Shown here: piece by piece, positions 1 through 6,077 of the stretch
Layout: each line of letters opens with the position of its first letter
Numbering within the stretch: position 1 is the stretch's first letter
NCBI GenBank assembly: GCA_022561735.1
Contig: JADFQR010000091.1
Span: 1-6,077 of the forward strand
Direction: 5' to 3'
From: Chloroflexota bacterium
GTDB taxonomy: Bacteria; Chloroflexota; Dehalococcoidia; UBA1151
Length of the DNA: 6,077 bases
Made by a program: the position numbers and the translations under genes
Notes under the pieces: generated by a model
Database searches by the model: none
The model's input: the letters and a program-made list of their open reading frames with translations, nothing else
What the model was told of the DNA's origin: nothing

Positions 1-919
1 GGGCCGTGGTGAATCCCACGCCAAATGTCGTATCGAACATCAGGATTCGTATGGCCCCGCTGGACAGCATCGGCCGGTACGCCTCCGCTCCCGCCAGCGT
101 TTCACTGCCAAGTACCGGCAGATGCGTCCGTTCCTGGACCTGCCGCAAACCCTCAACGTTATCCGGCGATGTCACATCCTCTATCCAGTAAGGCTCGAAC
201 TCCTCAAGCGCCTTCACGATCTTTACGACCGACGGGATGTTCCACATGCCGTGCAGTTCCGCCATGATCTCCATGCGGTGGCCGACGCGCTCCCGGATCT
301 TCCTGAACGGCTCCAGCCCCCTGTTCAGGTCCTCAAGCGAGATGTGCTGACCGTTCGTCTTCTGCACAAACTGGTCAAACGGCCAGATCTTCATCGCCTT
401 CACGCCCTCGTCCAGAAGACTCTCGGCCACGGTCCCGGCGTCTGTCAGGAAGCCCTGCAGATCGTCGTACTTGCCCGCGGGCGTCTCGTGCGAGACCTGC
501 GTTGAGAGTCCAAACGCAGACGAACCCGGGCGAACGGCGTAGCGCCAGTCTGCGCAGGTGTTGTAGATCGGGATCGAGTCCCGGACGCGGCCGCCAAGCG
601 CCTGGTGAATTGGCTGCCCCGTAGCCTGTCCGACGATGTCCCACAGGGCGATGTCCACCGCCGAGATCGCCCGCCACTCCGCGATGCCGTTCGGGCCGAT
701 CCGGCCGCGTGCCTGCATGCCCTCATGTAGGTCGGCGACCTGCATCGGGTCCTTGCCCAGCAGGTAAGGAGCCAGCTCGGCGAGGATGTGCGCCTCGGTC
801 GGTGCCGGCACGCCGGTCGACTCGCCAAGGCCGATCAGGCCGTCATCCGTGTGCACCCGGACCCACACCCAGCGGGGGATATCGCCGGTCCGGACGGTCT
901 CGATTTTCGTGATTTTCAC
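1..919 (-). CDS. Enolase-superfamily (mandelate racemase/muconate lactonizing type) sugar-acid dehydratase-like protein, 3' end cut by window
   Basis: Reading the minus strand from GTG at 917-919 gives 306 codons without a stop. The roughly 95 C-terminal residues expected from the 403-residue neighbours lie outside the window. The start reads MKITKIETV, the usual opening of this family. A second in-frame GTG 18 bases upstream, at 935-937, would overlap the preceding gene. The N-terminal capping domain (about 1-120) is followed by the TIM barrel. Visible active-site positions are K177 on strand 2 (KIW, not the classic KxK), metal ligands E221, E247 and E273, H223 in the ELH motif (predicted general acid, as in galactonate and mannonate dehydratases), and D296, whose partner His is off-window. 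It is clearly more diverged from the two upstream paralogues than they are from each other. Only 7 bases separate it from the upstream stop, implying co-transcription and possible translational coupling. Family is sure; acid-sugar dehydratase activity is inferred, substrate unknown. Confidence 0.93.
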   Translation of the reverse strand, partial: MKITKIETVRTGDIPRWVWVRVHTDDGLIGLGESTGVPAPTEAHILAELAPYLLGKDPMQVADLHEGMQARGRIGPNGIAEWRAISAVDIALWDIVGQATGQPIHQALGGRVRDSIPIYNTCADWRYAVRPGSSAFGLSTQVSHETPAGKYDDLQGFLTDAGTVAESLLDEGVKAMKIWPFDQFVQKTNGQHISLEDLNRGLEPFRKIRERVGHRMEIMAELHGMWNIPSVVKIVKALEEFEPYWIEDVTSPDNVEGLRQVQERTHLPVLGSETLAGAEAYRPMLSSGAIRILMFDTTFGVGFTTA

Positions 920-926
920 GAGATGG

Positions 927-2138
927 CTAAAGCTCACTCACTCGCACGGTGAGTTGATCGCTCTCCATGAACTTGTCCGTGAAATCCAGTCCCAGTCCCG
1001 GGTCGTCCGAGACGGAGGCGTAGCCGTTCTCCACCTTCGGGAGCGCCGTCACGATGTCCTTGTACCAGGTGGCGTTGTACGACCTCACCGTCTCCTGGAT
1101 GAAGGCGTTCGGGACGTTCAGGCTCAGGTGCACGCCCGCCATGAAGGCGATCGGGCCCACGCAGTCGTGGGGTGCGATCGGGATGCCGAACGACTCGGCC
1201 ATCGTCGAGACGCGCTTGGCCTCGGAGATACCGCCGACCCAACCGAGGTCGAACATACAGATATCGATTGCCTGGCTCACGAACATCTCCCGGAAAGACC
1301 ACCGGGTCGATACGTTCTCGCTGGCGATCGTCGGGACGTTGGTGGTACGCCTGAACTGCGCCAGCGCGTCCAGGTTGTCCATCTGGACCGCGTCCTCAAA
1401 CCACATCGGTTTGAACGGCGTTACCGCCTGGGCGATCTTTATCGCCGAGGGCAGGTTCCACGACTGGCCCATCTCGACGGCGACCTCCATCTGGTCGCCC
1501 ATCGCCTCGTGGATCAAGCGAAACGGCTCCGTGCCCTTCTCCAGGTCTTCGGCCGATATGAACTGGCCGTTGGTCTTGGCTGCGAACTGTGAGAACGGCC
1601 AGATCTTCATCGCCCTGAAACCATCGGCGTACAGGCTCTTGGCGAGGCCCACGGGATCGGTCAGGGCGGAGTGCTCGTCGTCGTACGGCCCGGAAGGGAC
1701 AAAGTCTGCCGAACCCGCCCGAGGGCCATCGGAGCGATTCATGTAGAACGGGTAGCCGACGCAGGTGGCGTAGACCTTGATCTTGTCCCGACTCAACCCA
1801 CCAAGCACGTTGTACATCGGCTGTCCCATTCGTTTGCCGAAAAGATCCCACAGGGCGATGTCGATCGCCGAAAGCGCCCGCATTTCCGCCCCACGTGATC
1901 GCATGCCGCCGGCCATCTTCGCCAGACTGGCCCAGTGCAAGTCCAGTTGGCTGGCGTCCTTGCCAAGCAAGTACTCTGCTGCATCGGCATGGACGAAGGC
2001 GTGTACCGGCTCCGGCGAACCCGGCGATTCACCGATGCCGAACAAGCCGTCATCCGTGTGGATCTTGACAAAAAACAGCCCCCGGTAATCGCCGTGCCGG
2101 AAGGTTTCTATCCTGACGATCCTGGGTGATTTCGCCAC
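927..2138 (-). CDS. Enolase-superfamily dehydratase-like paralogue with altered active site
   Basis: 403 residues, starting at GTG 2136-2138 eleven bases after the upstream paralogue's stop. The full fold is present: capping domain to about residue 125, then the barrel and a C-terminal return segment. K178 (KIW), metal ligands E222, E248 and E274, the D297-H324 dyad (FDLGW; APHDCVGP) and E349 are all kept, so it should still bind Mg2+ and could still abstract an alpha proton. The odd feature is at three positions shared by both neighbouring paralogues: the post-strand-3 His is Gly (EMG, G224), KIWPFD has become KIWPFS (S183), and GQHIS has become GQFIS (F193). Known galactonate- and mannonate-type dehydratases use the His two residues after the first metal ligand as the acid that expels water. 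This copy may therefore be a racemase/epimerase-like variant, use another acid, act on another substrate, or be inactive. It is about 81% identical to its upstream neighbour with no gaps, and ends with the same ELstop. Confidence 0.95.
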   Translation of the reverse strand: MAKSPRIVRIETFRHGDYRGLFFVKIHTDDGLFGIGESPGSPEPVHAFVHADAAEYLLGKDASQLDLHWASLAKMAGGMRSRGAEMRALSAIDIALWDLFGKRMGQPMYNVLGGLSRDKIKVYATCVGYPFYMNRSDGPRAGSADFVPSGPYDDEHSALTDPVGLAKSLYADGFRAMKIWPFSQFAAKTNGQFISAEDLEKGTEPFRLIHEAMGDQMEVAVEMGQSWNLPSAIKIAQAVTPFKPMWFEDAVQMDNLDALAQFRRTTNVPTIASENVSTRWSFREMFVSQAIDICMFDLGWVGGISEAKRVSTMAESFGIPIAPHDCVGPIAFMAGVHLSLNVPNAFIQETVRSYNATWYKDIVTALPKVENGYASVSDDPGLGLDFTDKFMESDQLTVRVSEL

Positions 2139-2149
2139 GAAAGCGGAAC

Positions 2150-3361
2150 CTAAAGCTCTGTCGTTGTTACGGTCAGCTGATCGCTATTCATGAACTTCTC
2201 CGTGAAGTCCAACCCCAGGCCGGGGTCATCGGAGACCGAGGCGTAGCCGTTCTCCACCTTCGGGAGCACGGTCACGATGTCGTTGTACCAGGTGGCGTTG
2301 TAGGCCCGGACCGTTTCCTGGATGAAGGTGTTTGTGGCGTTCAGGCTCAGGTGCACATCCGCCATGAAGGCGACCGGGCCGACGCAGTCGTGCGGAGCGA
2401 TGGGGATGCCAAACGACTCCGCCATCGTCGCGATGCGCTTGGCTTCCGATATGCCGCCGACCCATCCGAGGTCGAACATGCAGATATCGACCGCCTGTTT
2501 CACAAACATCTCCCGGAAGGTCCAGCGGGTGGATACACCCTCGCTGGCGATGGTCGGGATGTTGGTCGTGCTTCGGAACTGCGCCAGCGCGTCCAGGTTG
2601 TCCATCTGAACGGCGTCCTCAAACCACATCGGCTGGTACGGCGTCACCGCCTGGGCGATCTTTATCGCAGACGGCAGGTTCCACATCTGGTGCATCTCTA
2701 CGGCGACCTCCATCTGGTCACCCATCGCCTCGTGGATCAGCCGGAACGGCTCCGTCCCTTTCTCAATGTCTTCGTGCGAGATGTGCTGGCCGTTGGTCTT
2801 TGTGACGAACTGGTCGAAGGGCCAGATTTTCATCGCCCGGAAGCCCTCGGCGTGCAGGCTCTTCGCCAGTCCCACCGGGTCGGTGAGGAAGGCGTGCTGG
2901 TCCTCGTACGGTCCGTCCGGCCGGTAGTCCACAGACCCGGGCTCGTAATGTCCGGCCCTGTTCACGCCGTACGAGTAGCCGGCGCAGGTGTTGTAGACCT
3001 TGATCCTGTCCCTGCTCAACCCGCCGAGGACGTTGTACGTCGGTTCCTCCATCCGTTTGCCGTACAGGTCCCAGAGAGCGATGTCGATGGCGGACAGGGC
3101 GCGCATTTCTGCGCCGCGGGAGCGCATGCCGCCGCACATCTTCGCCAGGTTGTGCCAGTGCCAGTCCAGCTGGCTGGCGTCCTTGCCGAGCAGGTACTCG
3201 GAGGCGTCGGCGTGGATGAAGGCGTGTACCGGCTCCGGGGACCAGGACGTTTCACCGATGCCGTAAAGCCCATCGTCCGTGTGGATCTTGACGAATACCA
3301 GCTTCGGGTACTCGTCATGGTTGAACGTCTCAATCTTGACAATCTTTGGCGATTTCGCCAC
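2150..3361 (-). CDS. Enolase-superfamily sugar-acid dehydratase-like protein, full active site
   Basis: I place the start at GTG 3359-3361. It aligns with the first codon of the downstream paralogue, gives the same 403-residue length, and has AAAGG nine bases upstream. A further GTG at 3397 would add 12 residues with no counterpart. All expected catalytic positions are present: K178 (KIW), metal ligands E222, E248 and E274, H224 in EMH (predicted general acid), the D297-H324 dyad (MFDLGW; APHDCVGP) and E349. The set resembles acid-sugar dehydratases of the mandelate racemase subgroup (galactonate/mannonate type), which remove an alpha proton with the His-Asp pair and expel a beta hydroxyl with the strand-3 His. 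It is a cytoplasmic, Mg2+-dependent enzyme by family. It is the first of three tandem paralogues and is preceded by 96 noncoding bases holding a GC-rich repeat-like stretch. Family assignment is firm; the substrate is unknown, although the neighbouring double-cupin suggests a catabolic route for an organic acid. Confidence 0.96.
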   Translation of the reverse strand: MAKSPKIVKIETFNHDEYPKLVFVKIHTDDGLYGIGETSWSPEPVHAFIHADASEYLLGKDASQLDWHWHNLAKMCGGMRSRGAEMRALSAIDIALWDLYGKRMEEPTYNVLGGLSRDRIKVYNTCAGYSYGVNRAGHYEPGSVDYRPDGPYEDQHAFLTDPVGLAKSLHAEGFRAMKIWPFDQFVTKTNGQHISHEDIEKGTEPFRLIHEAMGDQMEVAVEMHQMWNLPSAIKIAQAVTPYQPMWFEDAVQMDNLDALAQFRSTTNIPTIASEGVSTRWTFREMFVKQAVDICMFDLGWVGGISEAKRIATMAESFGIPIAPHDCVGPVAFMADVHLSLNATNTFIQETVRAYNATWYNDIVTVLPKVENGYASVSDDPGLGLDFTEKFMNSDQLTVTTTEL

Positions 3362-3370
3362 GGACGTGGG

Positions 3371-3376
3371 CCTTTC
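3371..3376 (-). promoter_or_regulatory. Ribosome binding site deciding the start of the 2150-3361 gene
   Basis: Minus-strand GAAAGG ends nine bases before GTG at 3361. It supports that start over the in-frame GTG at 3397, whose upstream bases lie in a CCCTCACCCTGG-type repeat and carry no purine-rich site. Confidence 0.5.
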
Positions 3377-3390
3377 GTTGAACAGGTCTC

Positions 3391-3423
3391 TTCTCACGGC
3401 GGGAGAGGGCCAGGGTGAGGGGG
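3391..3423. repeat. GC-rich intergenic repeat-like segment (CCCTCACCCTGGCCCTCTCC type)
   Basis: On the minus strand the spacer between the cupin gene and the first dehydratase gene contains CCCTCACCCTGGCCCTCTCC followed by CGCCGTGAGAAG. Very similar CCCTCACCC..CCCTCTCCC phrases occur as dispersed intergenic repeats in many GC-rich bacterial genomes, often with a mirror GGGAGAGGG arm. Here only one arm is present, so no hairpin forms. There is no second copy within the window, so the repeat status rests on recognition, not on a copy count. Confidence 0.35.
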
Positions 3424-5394: not shown

Positions 5395-5559
5395 AGGCTC
5401 AGGCTACCTCACGCTTTTGTTCTCACGGCGAGTCATTTCGGGGGGGCCAGTTACGAAGCATATGGCGAGCATGTCGAAGTGAATTTCGCCGCCGGCCGGC
5501 GATCGCACGGGCACGCCCTGCCCTCCAGAAATCGTTCCTGTCCTCCTCAATAATTCCTC
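5395..5559. other. Noncoding stretch upstream of the acetyltransferase gene
   Basis: No credible gene on either strand. The stretch holds a GCCGGCCGGC palindrome at about 5492-5501 and a small hairpin, GGGCA-loop-TGCCC, at 5509-5523 in a phrase (GGGCACGCCCTGCCC) of the kind seen in dispersed intergenic repeats. It should also contain the promoter of the leftward acetyltransferase gene, which I could not pinpoint. Together with the array that follows, it makes a gene-free stretch of about 300 bases. Confidence 0.5.
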
Positions 5560-5643
5560 TCACCCCGAACCCGAAACCTGTGACCCCGAATTTGATTTCT
5601 GCCATCCTGAGTTCGATTCCGGTCATCCTGAACTCGATTCAGG
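5560..5643. repeat. Tandem array of four 21-base units, left side
   Basis: Four consecutive 21-base units start at 5560, 5581, 5602 and 5623. Each follows the pattern TCAtCCtGAA...GATTC..G, and similarity to the palindromic innermost unit falls with distance from it. The innermost unit is a perfect palindrome, ATCCTGAA-5 bases-TTCAGGAT, at 5625-5645. A further, very degenerate unit ending in ATTCC may precede the array at 5539-5559. Confidence 0.8.
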
Positions 5644-5648
5644 ATCCG
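5622..5648 (+). repeat. Inverted repeat, left copy (27 bases, exact)
   Basis: These 27 bases, beginning GTCATCCTGAAC and ending CAGGATCCG, are the exact reverse complement of 5929-5955. The copy contains the perfect 21-base palindrome at 5625-5645 and is the innermost unit of the left array. Confidence 0.9.
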
Positions 5649-5701
5649 TTCAAGTATCGTGACCTCGCGATGCCGGGGGACGAAACATGATGGCCGTTCT
5701 T

Positions 5702-5915
5702 AACGCCCTTATGTGTGCGTAACCGGCGGCCTTGAGCGGCGTGTGAGGCGGCACAAGCGCGCATTCTCTCCCGGTTTCGCGGCCGGTACGGCCGTACGAG
5801 GACGGTCTTTCTCGACGCGACCCTGGAGGTGCAGGAAGCGACGCGGGAAGAAATGCGGCTCAAGCAATGGCGTCGTCAATGGAAGGTCGATCTCGTCGAA
5901 AGAAGCAACCCGTGA
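5702..5915 (+). pseudogene. Remnant of a small GIY-YIG endonuclease, frameshifted and N-terminally eroded
   Basis: Two pieces in different frames join into one GIY-YIG-like protein. The first runs from about 5710, giving YVCVTGGLERRVRRHK then SPGFAA, which matches the usual YVGVTsDL.RRV.EHk...GFtarYg stretch. The second, from about 5785 to TGA at 5913-5915, gives RYGRTRTVFLD, then EATREEMRLKQWRRQWK and VDLVERSNP. That matches the family's REkqLK.WrRaWKi.LIE..NP tail, including the conserved metal-binding Glu region. One missing base near 5784/5785 would restore frame; another near 5710 would restore ALYV. The YIG Gly is now Cys (YVC), no GIY strand is found upstream, and the usual W.DL end after NP is missing. 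Intact relatives have about 90-100 residues. It is not expected to make an active nuclease. It lies wholly between inverted palindromic repeats. Confidence 0.65.
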
Positions 5916-5928
5916 CGGTGGGTTCTAG

Positions 5929-5955
5929 CGGATCCTGAATCGAGTTCAGGATGAC
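5929..5955 (-). repeat. Inverted repeat, right copy (27 bases, exact)
   Basis: This is the exact reverse complement of 5622-5648, with the perfect palindrome ATCCTGAA-5 bases-TTCAGGAT at 5932-5952. It begins 13 bases after the stop codon of the nuclease remnant and is the innermost unit of the right array. Confidence 0.9.
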
Positions 5956-6077
5956 TGGATTAAGTTCAGGTGGCGGGATTAAGCCCAGGATGACGGGATT
6001 GAGTTCAGATGACGGGATTAAGTTCAGGTTGGGCATATGTACCCAGGATTGCGGGACTCAAGTCCAGGTTTATTTCT
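5934..6077. repeat. Tandem array of 19-21 base units, right side, running to the window edge
   Basis: After the palindromic unit at 5934-5954, further units begin at 5955, 5974, 5994, 6013, 6033 and 6052. Most follow CGGGATTaAGTTCAGGatga with lengths of 19-20 bases. They are the reverse complement of the left-array unit type. The unit at 6033 is strongly degenerate, and the array may continue past 6077. No gene is present. Confidence 0.8.

Follow-up and report, generated by a model that had tools for sequence, protein, structure and literature searches.

In a 6,077-nucleotide stretch of Chloroflexota DNA (contig JADFQR010000091.1; hereafter, the window), a decayed gene of the small GIY-YIG nuclease family is enclosed by two inverted, hairpin-forming REPs, and the same architecture recurs around intact nuclease genes in several phyla. 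The feature is probably a copy, now dead, of a selfish cassette, the nuclease of which would act on its own class of REP and spread it. The pairing of nuclease and REP is well supported; cutting and movement would follow in the proposed reading.

Two inverted REPs enclose the cassette

The left REP (5622–5648, forward strand) consists of the remnant of a GTC tag, an 8-bp stem with AT first, a 5-base loop, and the tail CCG, and the right REP (5929–5955, reverse strand) is its exact inverted copy; both were delimited from sequence and folding. The exact 27-base inverted repeats reported by the initial annotation were confirmed (27/27 bases), and the match extends to 31 bases at 97% identity. Both tags point away from the nuclease gene. 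Exact inverted repeats of at least 16 bases were found in 0/100 dinucleotide shuffles of the window (those of 14 bases in 16/100), and a generic CGTC-hairpin detector gave two matches over the 100 shuffles combined versus two in the real window. A chance origin of the inverted repeats was ruled out by these shuffles. Each repeat had also been described as containing a perfect 21-base palindrome, which did not hold. The REP has 8-base complementary arms, ATCCTGAA and TTCAGGAT, around a non-palindromic 5-base loop, with GTC ahead, and the palindrome reading was rejected because folding gives a stem-loop. Short pieces fold into this stem-loop; when the REP was folded with 93–116 bases of the adjoining arrays, the energy was not unusual (z = −0.9 and −0.7).

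Degenerate units of the same repeat, which the initial annotation does not mention, lie on both sides of the cassette. To the right, 5956–6056 (forward strand) is filled by degenerate 19–20-base tandem units of a REP half, reported by TRF in rows within 5942–6056. To the left, 5560–5621 (forward strand) holds units that were read by eye and face the right array, one of which, at 5606–5622, has two mismatches. In these facing arrays (5560–5621 and 5942–6056), a unit consists of one REP arm plus the tag, with a length of 19–20 bases on the right. The window had no match in Rfam, the window end had none in a plasmid search, and an exact 26-mer was not found in viral contigs.

The enclosed gene is a GIY-YIG remnant with intact homologues

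Between the REPs, 5649–5928 (forward strand) comprises the decayed nuclease gene with short untranslated ends. Its pieces are read in two frames. When joined by X they scored 13.3 bits in Pfam, below the cut-off of 22.6, and separately they gave no match; the remnant is without part of the GIY-YIG domain. A protein search with the two pieces set together returned no candidate. The Chloroflexi metagenome-assembled genome casp150-mb.164 (G018) carries two intact cassettes in tandem, both with the REP of the window, and their genes scored 45.6 and 47.4 bits against PF01541. Aligned end to end with one of them, the window cassette is identical at 255/334 bases (76%), the REPs (46/48) being better kept than the inner part (209/286). 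Because its DNA aligns to two intact homologous cassettes with PF01541 genes, we assign the window remnant to the GIY-YIG family. The window cassette is 36 bases shorter than the aligned one and its frame is broken. The initial annotation was right both in seeing a broken GIY-YIG-like frame, now recognised from pieces in two frames and from the DNA alignment, and in calling this copy dead.

In the intact homologues, the PF01541 domain includes the conserved residues Y, Y, R, and E, and the homologue scoring 47.4 bits (contig C106) belongs to clade A of the tree described below. Among 132 clade-A proteins, the residues Y, Y, G, R, H, and E, which we take to be those of the active site, are kept in at least 97%. 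This conservation suggests that nuclease activity in clade A is under selection. With one clade-A protein as query, a PDB sequence search gave no match, and the two weak matches in NCBIfam fell well short of the curated cut-offs.

The window repeats resemble CGTC-tagged REPs

A survey by Di Nocera, De Gregorio, and Rocco (2013, PMC3733652) reports CGTC-tagged REPs, in paired copies, from five phyla, with the tag CGTC or variants (TGTC/CCTC), a stem of 8–9 bp with AT first, a loop of 4–5 bases, and a tail of approximately CCA. According to this survey they are apparently without a dedicated transposase, and none of the RAYT/IS200 genes in the species that bear them is flanked by CGTC REPs. The window REPs share the GTC before an AT-first stem, the 8-bp stem, the 5-base loop, and the short unpaired tail. 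Their tags read GGTC (left) and AGTC (right), and so differ from CGTC in the first base; the CGTC tag itself is present in the second intact homologous cassette of G018 and in the left REP of a Sphingomonas locus (L400). The tail is CCG in the window and in the G018 locus, and CCA in L400 and in a further locus (L403). By stem and loop, the window repeats appear to fit the CGTC-tagged REP class. The survey reports no dedicated enzyme for them, whereas the CGTC-type REPs here bound a GIY-YIG gene.

Public genomes contain the exact 24-mer of the window in at least 111 stretches, whose record titles include Chloroflexi, Armatimonadetes, and Patescibacteria, outside the five phyla that PMC3733652 lists for CGTC repeats. 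Across these 111 loci (808 kb), 63 of 100 neighbouring palindrome pairs have their tags outward. Within the same 808 kb, the distance to an exact palindrome is 5, 9, and 95 bp for the three clade-A genes present, and 1482 and 5824 bp for the two clade-B genes.

Facing repeats are enriched at small GIY-YIG genes

We surveyed small GIY-YIG genes taken as the best PF01541 match in up to 30 genomes per group, not picked by repeat. The four groups were the class of the Chloroflexi genome G009, the class of the Sphingomonas genome G015, and the phyla of G038 and G020. GTC-AT stem-loops occurred at 0.28–0.83 per kb near the gene versus 0–0.077 per kb farther out in the four groups. At the survey loci, upstream tags faced outward in 11 cases and inward in 3, and downstream tags outward in 10 and inward in 3; over all repeat classes the count was 97 outward and 44 inward, a majority and not a rule. 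Two nuclease genes of G015 (L398, L399) each have an entire facing REP pair, with GTCAC stems, on either side. Such stems are missed by the GTCAT detector, so the REP counts are likely low.

Flank complementarity was then scored in a test that assumes no repeat sequence (score ≥12), with the genes divided into a subfamily A, defined by the FTxKY/NPxW motif, and other small GIY-YIG genes. By motif, 5/117 loci had no gene; 3/75 of the others and 1/20 of the UvrC loci were short of near flank, and more loci were short of far flank. Facing repeats were found at 23/37 subfamily-A genes in the near flanks versus 1/30 in the far flanks, and at 18/72 versus 2/67 of the other small GIY-YIG genes. Far flanks gave 3/97 overall, and mismatched partners gave 11/180 and 5/355. 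At UvrC genes the result was 0/19 (20 fetched, from two of the four groups), and UvrC was rejected as a REP partner. Under the stricter definition of CGTC stem-loops on both sides with tags outward, the counts were 5/37 for subfamily A, 1/75 for the others, and 0/20 for UvrC.

The initial annotation had supposed that this nuclease type and this palindrome form a pair. The pairing passed the check that this annotation had named, with enrichment beside GIY-YIG genes in related and unrelated genomes against controls; "this nuclease type" proved too broad, as one clade goes with CGTC hairpins and their kin, another with a different repeat, and the UvrC genes examined with none, and no repeat is seen at many genes of either clade. 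Head-to-tail arrays of GIY-YIG genes were also observed, in L305 (genome G485; period ~365 bp), L302–L304, and L300, and no CGTC hairpin was detected in these arrays.

Nuclease clade and repeat class go together

The repeats beside the nuclease genes were sorted into classes, set after part of the data had been inspected: F1, CGTC stem-loops; F2, CTGAGCGnAGCGAAG; F3, ATTGCGAGG; and F4/F5, CTGAG..TCGAAG and CTGAGCGnAGTCGA. A FastTree phylogeny was built from 200 small GIY-YIG proteins (2/202 sequences failed the profile), some of them from genomes selected because they carry the palindrome or many copies. The motif-based subfamily split had filed several genes wrongly as "other," and a split by tree and profile was used instead. 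One split of the tree (support 76) placed all 19 F4/F5 genes on side B and 48 of the 50 F1–F3 genes on side A, so that clade A holds 48 F1–F3 and 0 F4/F5 genes and clade B holds 2 and 19; of the remaining tree genes, 129 had no class and 2 were mixed. The class labels need 3 changes on the tree, whereas none of 200 label shuffles needed fewer than 12 (Fisher p = 4.5e-15 for clade versus class, with related genes not down-weighted). Six of the nine sampled groups hold both classes and repeat the pattern, and the other three hold only clade A with F1–F3. The F1 calls at two clade-B genes (L240, L243), one of them inside the gene itself, look like chance matches of the detector and were kept in the counts.

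With detectors and clade profiles fixed beforehand, we examined a held-out set of 59 further genes, hand-picked from earlier tables. Clade A had F1–F3 in 17, F4/F5 in 0, and none in 15; clade B had F4/F5 in 6, F1–F3 in 0, a mixture in 1, and none in 20 (p = 9.9e-6). Facing repeats at score ≥14 were present in 15/32 near versus 0/26 far flanks for clade A and in 6/27 versus 0/21 for clade B. Of the held-out genes, 39/59 came from genomes that had also given a training locus; among the 20 from other genomes, those that could be classed were eight of clade A with F1–F3 and one of clade B with F4. Over all 293 genes, the class was none or mixed for 59/131 of clade A and 135/162 of clade B, and one clade-B gene (of 162) had F1 only. 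Taken as a sequence-level association, the link of clade A with CGTC hairpins and their kin, and of clade B with CTGAG..TCGA repeats, is well supported. Within clade A, F1, F2, and F3 also cluster on the tree (8 changes versus at least 15 in 300 shuffles), to which host kinship may add.

Cassette dimensions, duplicated copies, and sites with and without a cassette

Among 133 distinct clade-A genes, 27 have outward-facing F1 stem-loops no more than 200 bases away on each side. Within one locus, the left stem and the right agree at 8.22 of 9 positions, compared with 5.32 between loci (0/2000 permutations). The cassette length is 350–430 bp in 23 of the 27 and 484–545 bp in the rest.

Duplicated copies were found in several genomes. 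In G506, homology between two copies spans 1184–1842 and 7572–8293, while the REPs start at 1185 and 7573 and end at 1839 and 8290; the left end of homology is less telling than the right because both copies sit in REP clusters. Tandem cassette copies occur in G018 and G498. Three dispersed REP-nuclease-REP copies in G052 (L310, L311, L312) lie in a shared unit of up to 531 bp, which extends beyond the REPs and speaks against a simple picture. This longer unit has short facing ends, seen by eye, and the tag of the REP is not GTC. A comparison of the G018 contigs C36, C269, and C332 with C106 and C107 showed facing REP pairs of ~370 bp, with the nuclease gene, and of ~167–180 bp, the latter being possibly deletion derivatives.

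Filled and empty sites, which the initial annotation had proposed to compare, both exist, at the Sphingomonas locus L400 and between G351 and G790. For L400, the loci of 15 relatives were compared, and both flanks were seen in nine. In G753, G766, and G716, the flanks are 11–44 bases apart versus 536–557 in the filled genome (boundaries not base-exact). At the same site, G763 (L480) has 164 bases that hold two facing REPs of another stem and no gene, the 161 bases of G752 include a repeat of the clade-B type (by eye), three relatives carry 757–977 bases of other DNA, and G750 is filled. For G351, the site spans 494 bases, compared with 127 in its only genus relative, G790, again not base-exact. 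That the cassette was gained rather than lost at these sites rests on parsimony. Copy numbers of one F1 stem pattern were 83 in G015, 4 in the filled G750, and 0 or 1 in G753, G766, G716, G763, and G752. Eight Chloroflexi genomes had 0–37 copies of one stem pattern, three of them 0, and reversed-pattern controls for the REP counts gave 0.

A model for spread of REPs by their nuclease

The sequences themselves show how the cassette is built and that it recurs across phyla, along with the agreement of clade with class, the matched stems, the near-constant length, the duplicates, and the cassette-free relatives. Beyond these, we infer hairpin recognition, cutting, and repair-driven copying, with the nuclease and not another enzyme as the driver. 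REP hairpins would form on single strands, and the hairpin class on either side of its gene is most likely the one that the intact nuclease recognises. The enzyme would nick or cut at such repeats, near the tag, and host repair, using a REP-bounded template, would fill the break with a copy of the cassette or of just two facing REPs. The REPs found elsewhere, single or in facing pairs, would then be gene-less derivatives. There is, in our estimate, an even chance that this arrangement represents a widespread and unrecognised class of mobile element, REP-nuclease-REP with a GIY-YIG nuclease as its sole protein, present in several phyla, with each clade spreading its own hairpin class. On the same reading, clade A would spread the CGTC hairpins and two imperfect kin and clade B the CTGAG..TCGA repeats, by hairpin-directed homing and not by HUH transposition.

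The nuclease could instead be a controller, which resolves or trims hairpins and sits beside its substrate for regulation or because the pair shields the host against replication blocks. An enzyme that only processed the repeat would predict the match of clade and class equally well, and the conserved residues also agree with such a role. We nevertheless regard it as unlikely, since it leaves unexplained the duplicated REP-bounded copies in G506, G018, and G498, the sites with and without a cassette, and the matched flanking pairs on both sides.

Carriage of the nuclease as cargo, with the repeats moved by a transposase (RAYT or IS200/IS605) or by an IS acting on the ends, seems to us more doubtful still. 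In its favour, the longer unit common to the G052 copies means that the cassette may be carried by other elements, and an IS21-like fragment adjoins the cassette of the window. Y1_Tnp matches exist in 5/13 genomes with CGTC-type hairpins, but the other 8/13 have none, including G015 (83 copies), G018, G021, and the complete genome G009, which bear 12–83 copies of one stem pattern. Moreover, no GTCAT stem-loop was found in the DNA examined around each of the 11 Y1_Tnp loci of the five genomes. On these two grounds RAYT was rejected as the mover, and cargo would not predict clade-specific repeats.

That terminators or intergenic REPs of the ordinary kind came to lie by chance around a small gene is highly improbable: REPs are common between genes and gene-less facing pairs are frequent (63/100 neighbouring pairs), but the near versus far, UvrC, and mismatched-partner controls speak against it, as do the presence of repeats upstream as well and the matching of stems within a locus.

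Relation to known systems

In RAYT systems, a small enzyme gene is flanked by inverted palindromic repeats, gene-less pairs spread, and the enzyme group matches the repeat group. The cassette is like RAYT/REPIN in all of these, with one small enzyme gene, inverted palindromic repeats, gene-less pairs, and a match of clade and class. Its enzyme, however, is a GIY-YIG nuclease and not an HUH Y1 transposase, and its tag is GTC(A) and not GTAG; in the window itself, the gene between the REPs is of the GIY-YIG type and the tag ends in GTC. To our knowledge, no DNA end-joining or strand-joining chemistry is known for GIY-YIG enzymes. The Seg proteins of phage T4 are free-standing GIY-YIG homing endonucleases, and their lone gene can spread by cutting and host repair. 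Homing endonucleases of this type are, as far as we know, phage genes without terminal REP hairpins. The cassette differs from them in that its presumed target is the repeat that also bounds its gene. RAYT (TnpA-REP) with GTAG REPs and REPINs is the subject of PMC2817692, PMC3116915, and PMC8266576.

A literature search found no link of GIY-YIG to REP, RAYT, CGTC, or REPIN repeats among the matches listed, as judged from titles and the starts of abstracts, in a search that took in few subscription papers and no preprints. A term search did not return the word GIY in the searchable text of a 2025 REP survey (PMC12306157) or a 2018 HuH survey (PMC6006769). If our proposal is true, it would supply the missing enzyme of the CGTC REPs, together with an origin for several unexplained intergenic repeats; it would place a second, chemically different enzyme beside the known enzyme partner of REPs, and small stand-alone GIY-YIG proteins would gain a role. 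The match of clade and class across phyla makes the missing-enzyme question of the CGTC REPs directly testable at the bench.

Surroundings of the window cassette

In the window, three tandem enolase/mandelate-racemase-like genes are followed by a two-cupin gene, a small frame without clear family, a GNAT gene, and then the cassette. The closest relative found for these surroundings among 294 genomes of one class, G292, matches the window up to 5370, where another gene comes directly next. After 5370, the window instead has the IS21-like fragment, the repeat units, and the cassette, and it ends at 6077. A 52-base stretch at 5464–5515 shares 81% identity with the corresponding position in four relatives (L164–L167). 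It lies within frames read as istB-like (IS21), a name given by eye and not by a profile.

The enolase/mandelate-racemase assignment was made from the frames of all three genes and a profile run for one. Expansions of this superfamily are typical of SAR202 Chloroflexi. The three tandem genes occupy 2–3397, and similar genes occur in the same order in G292 (L162).
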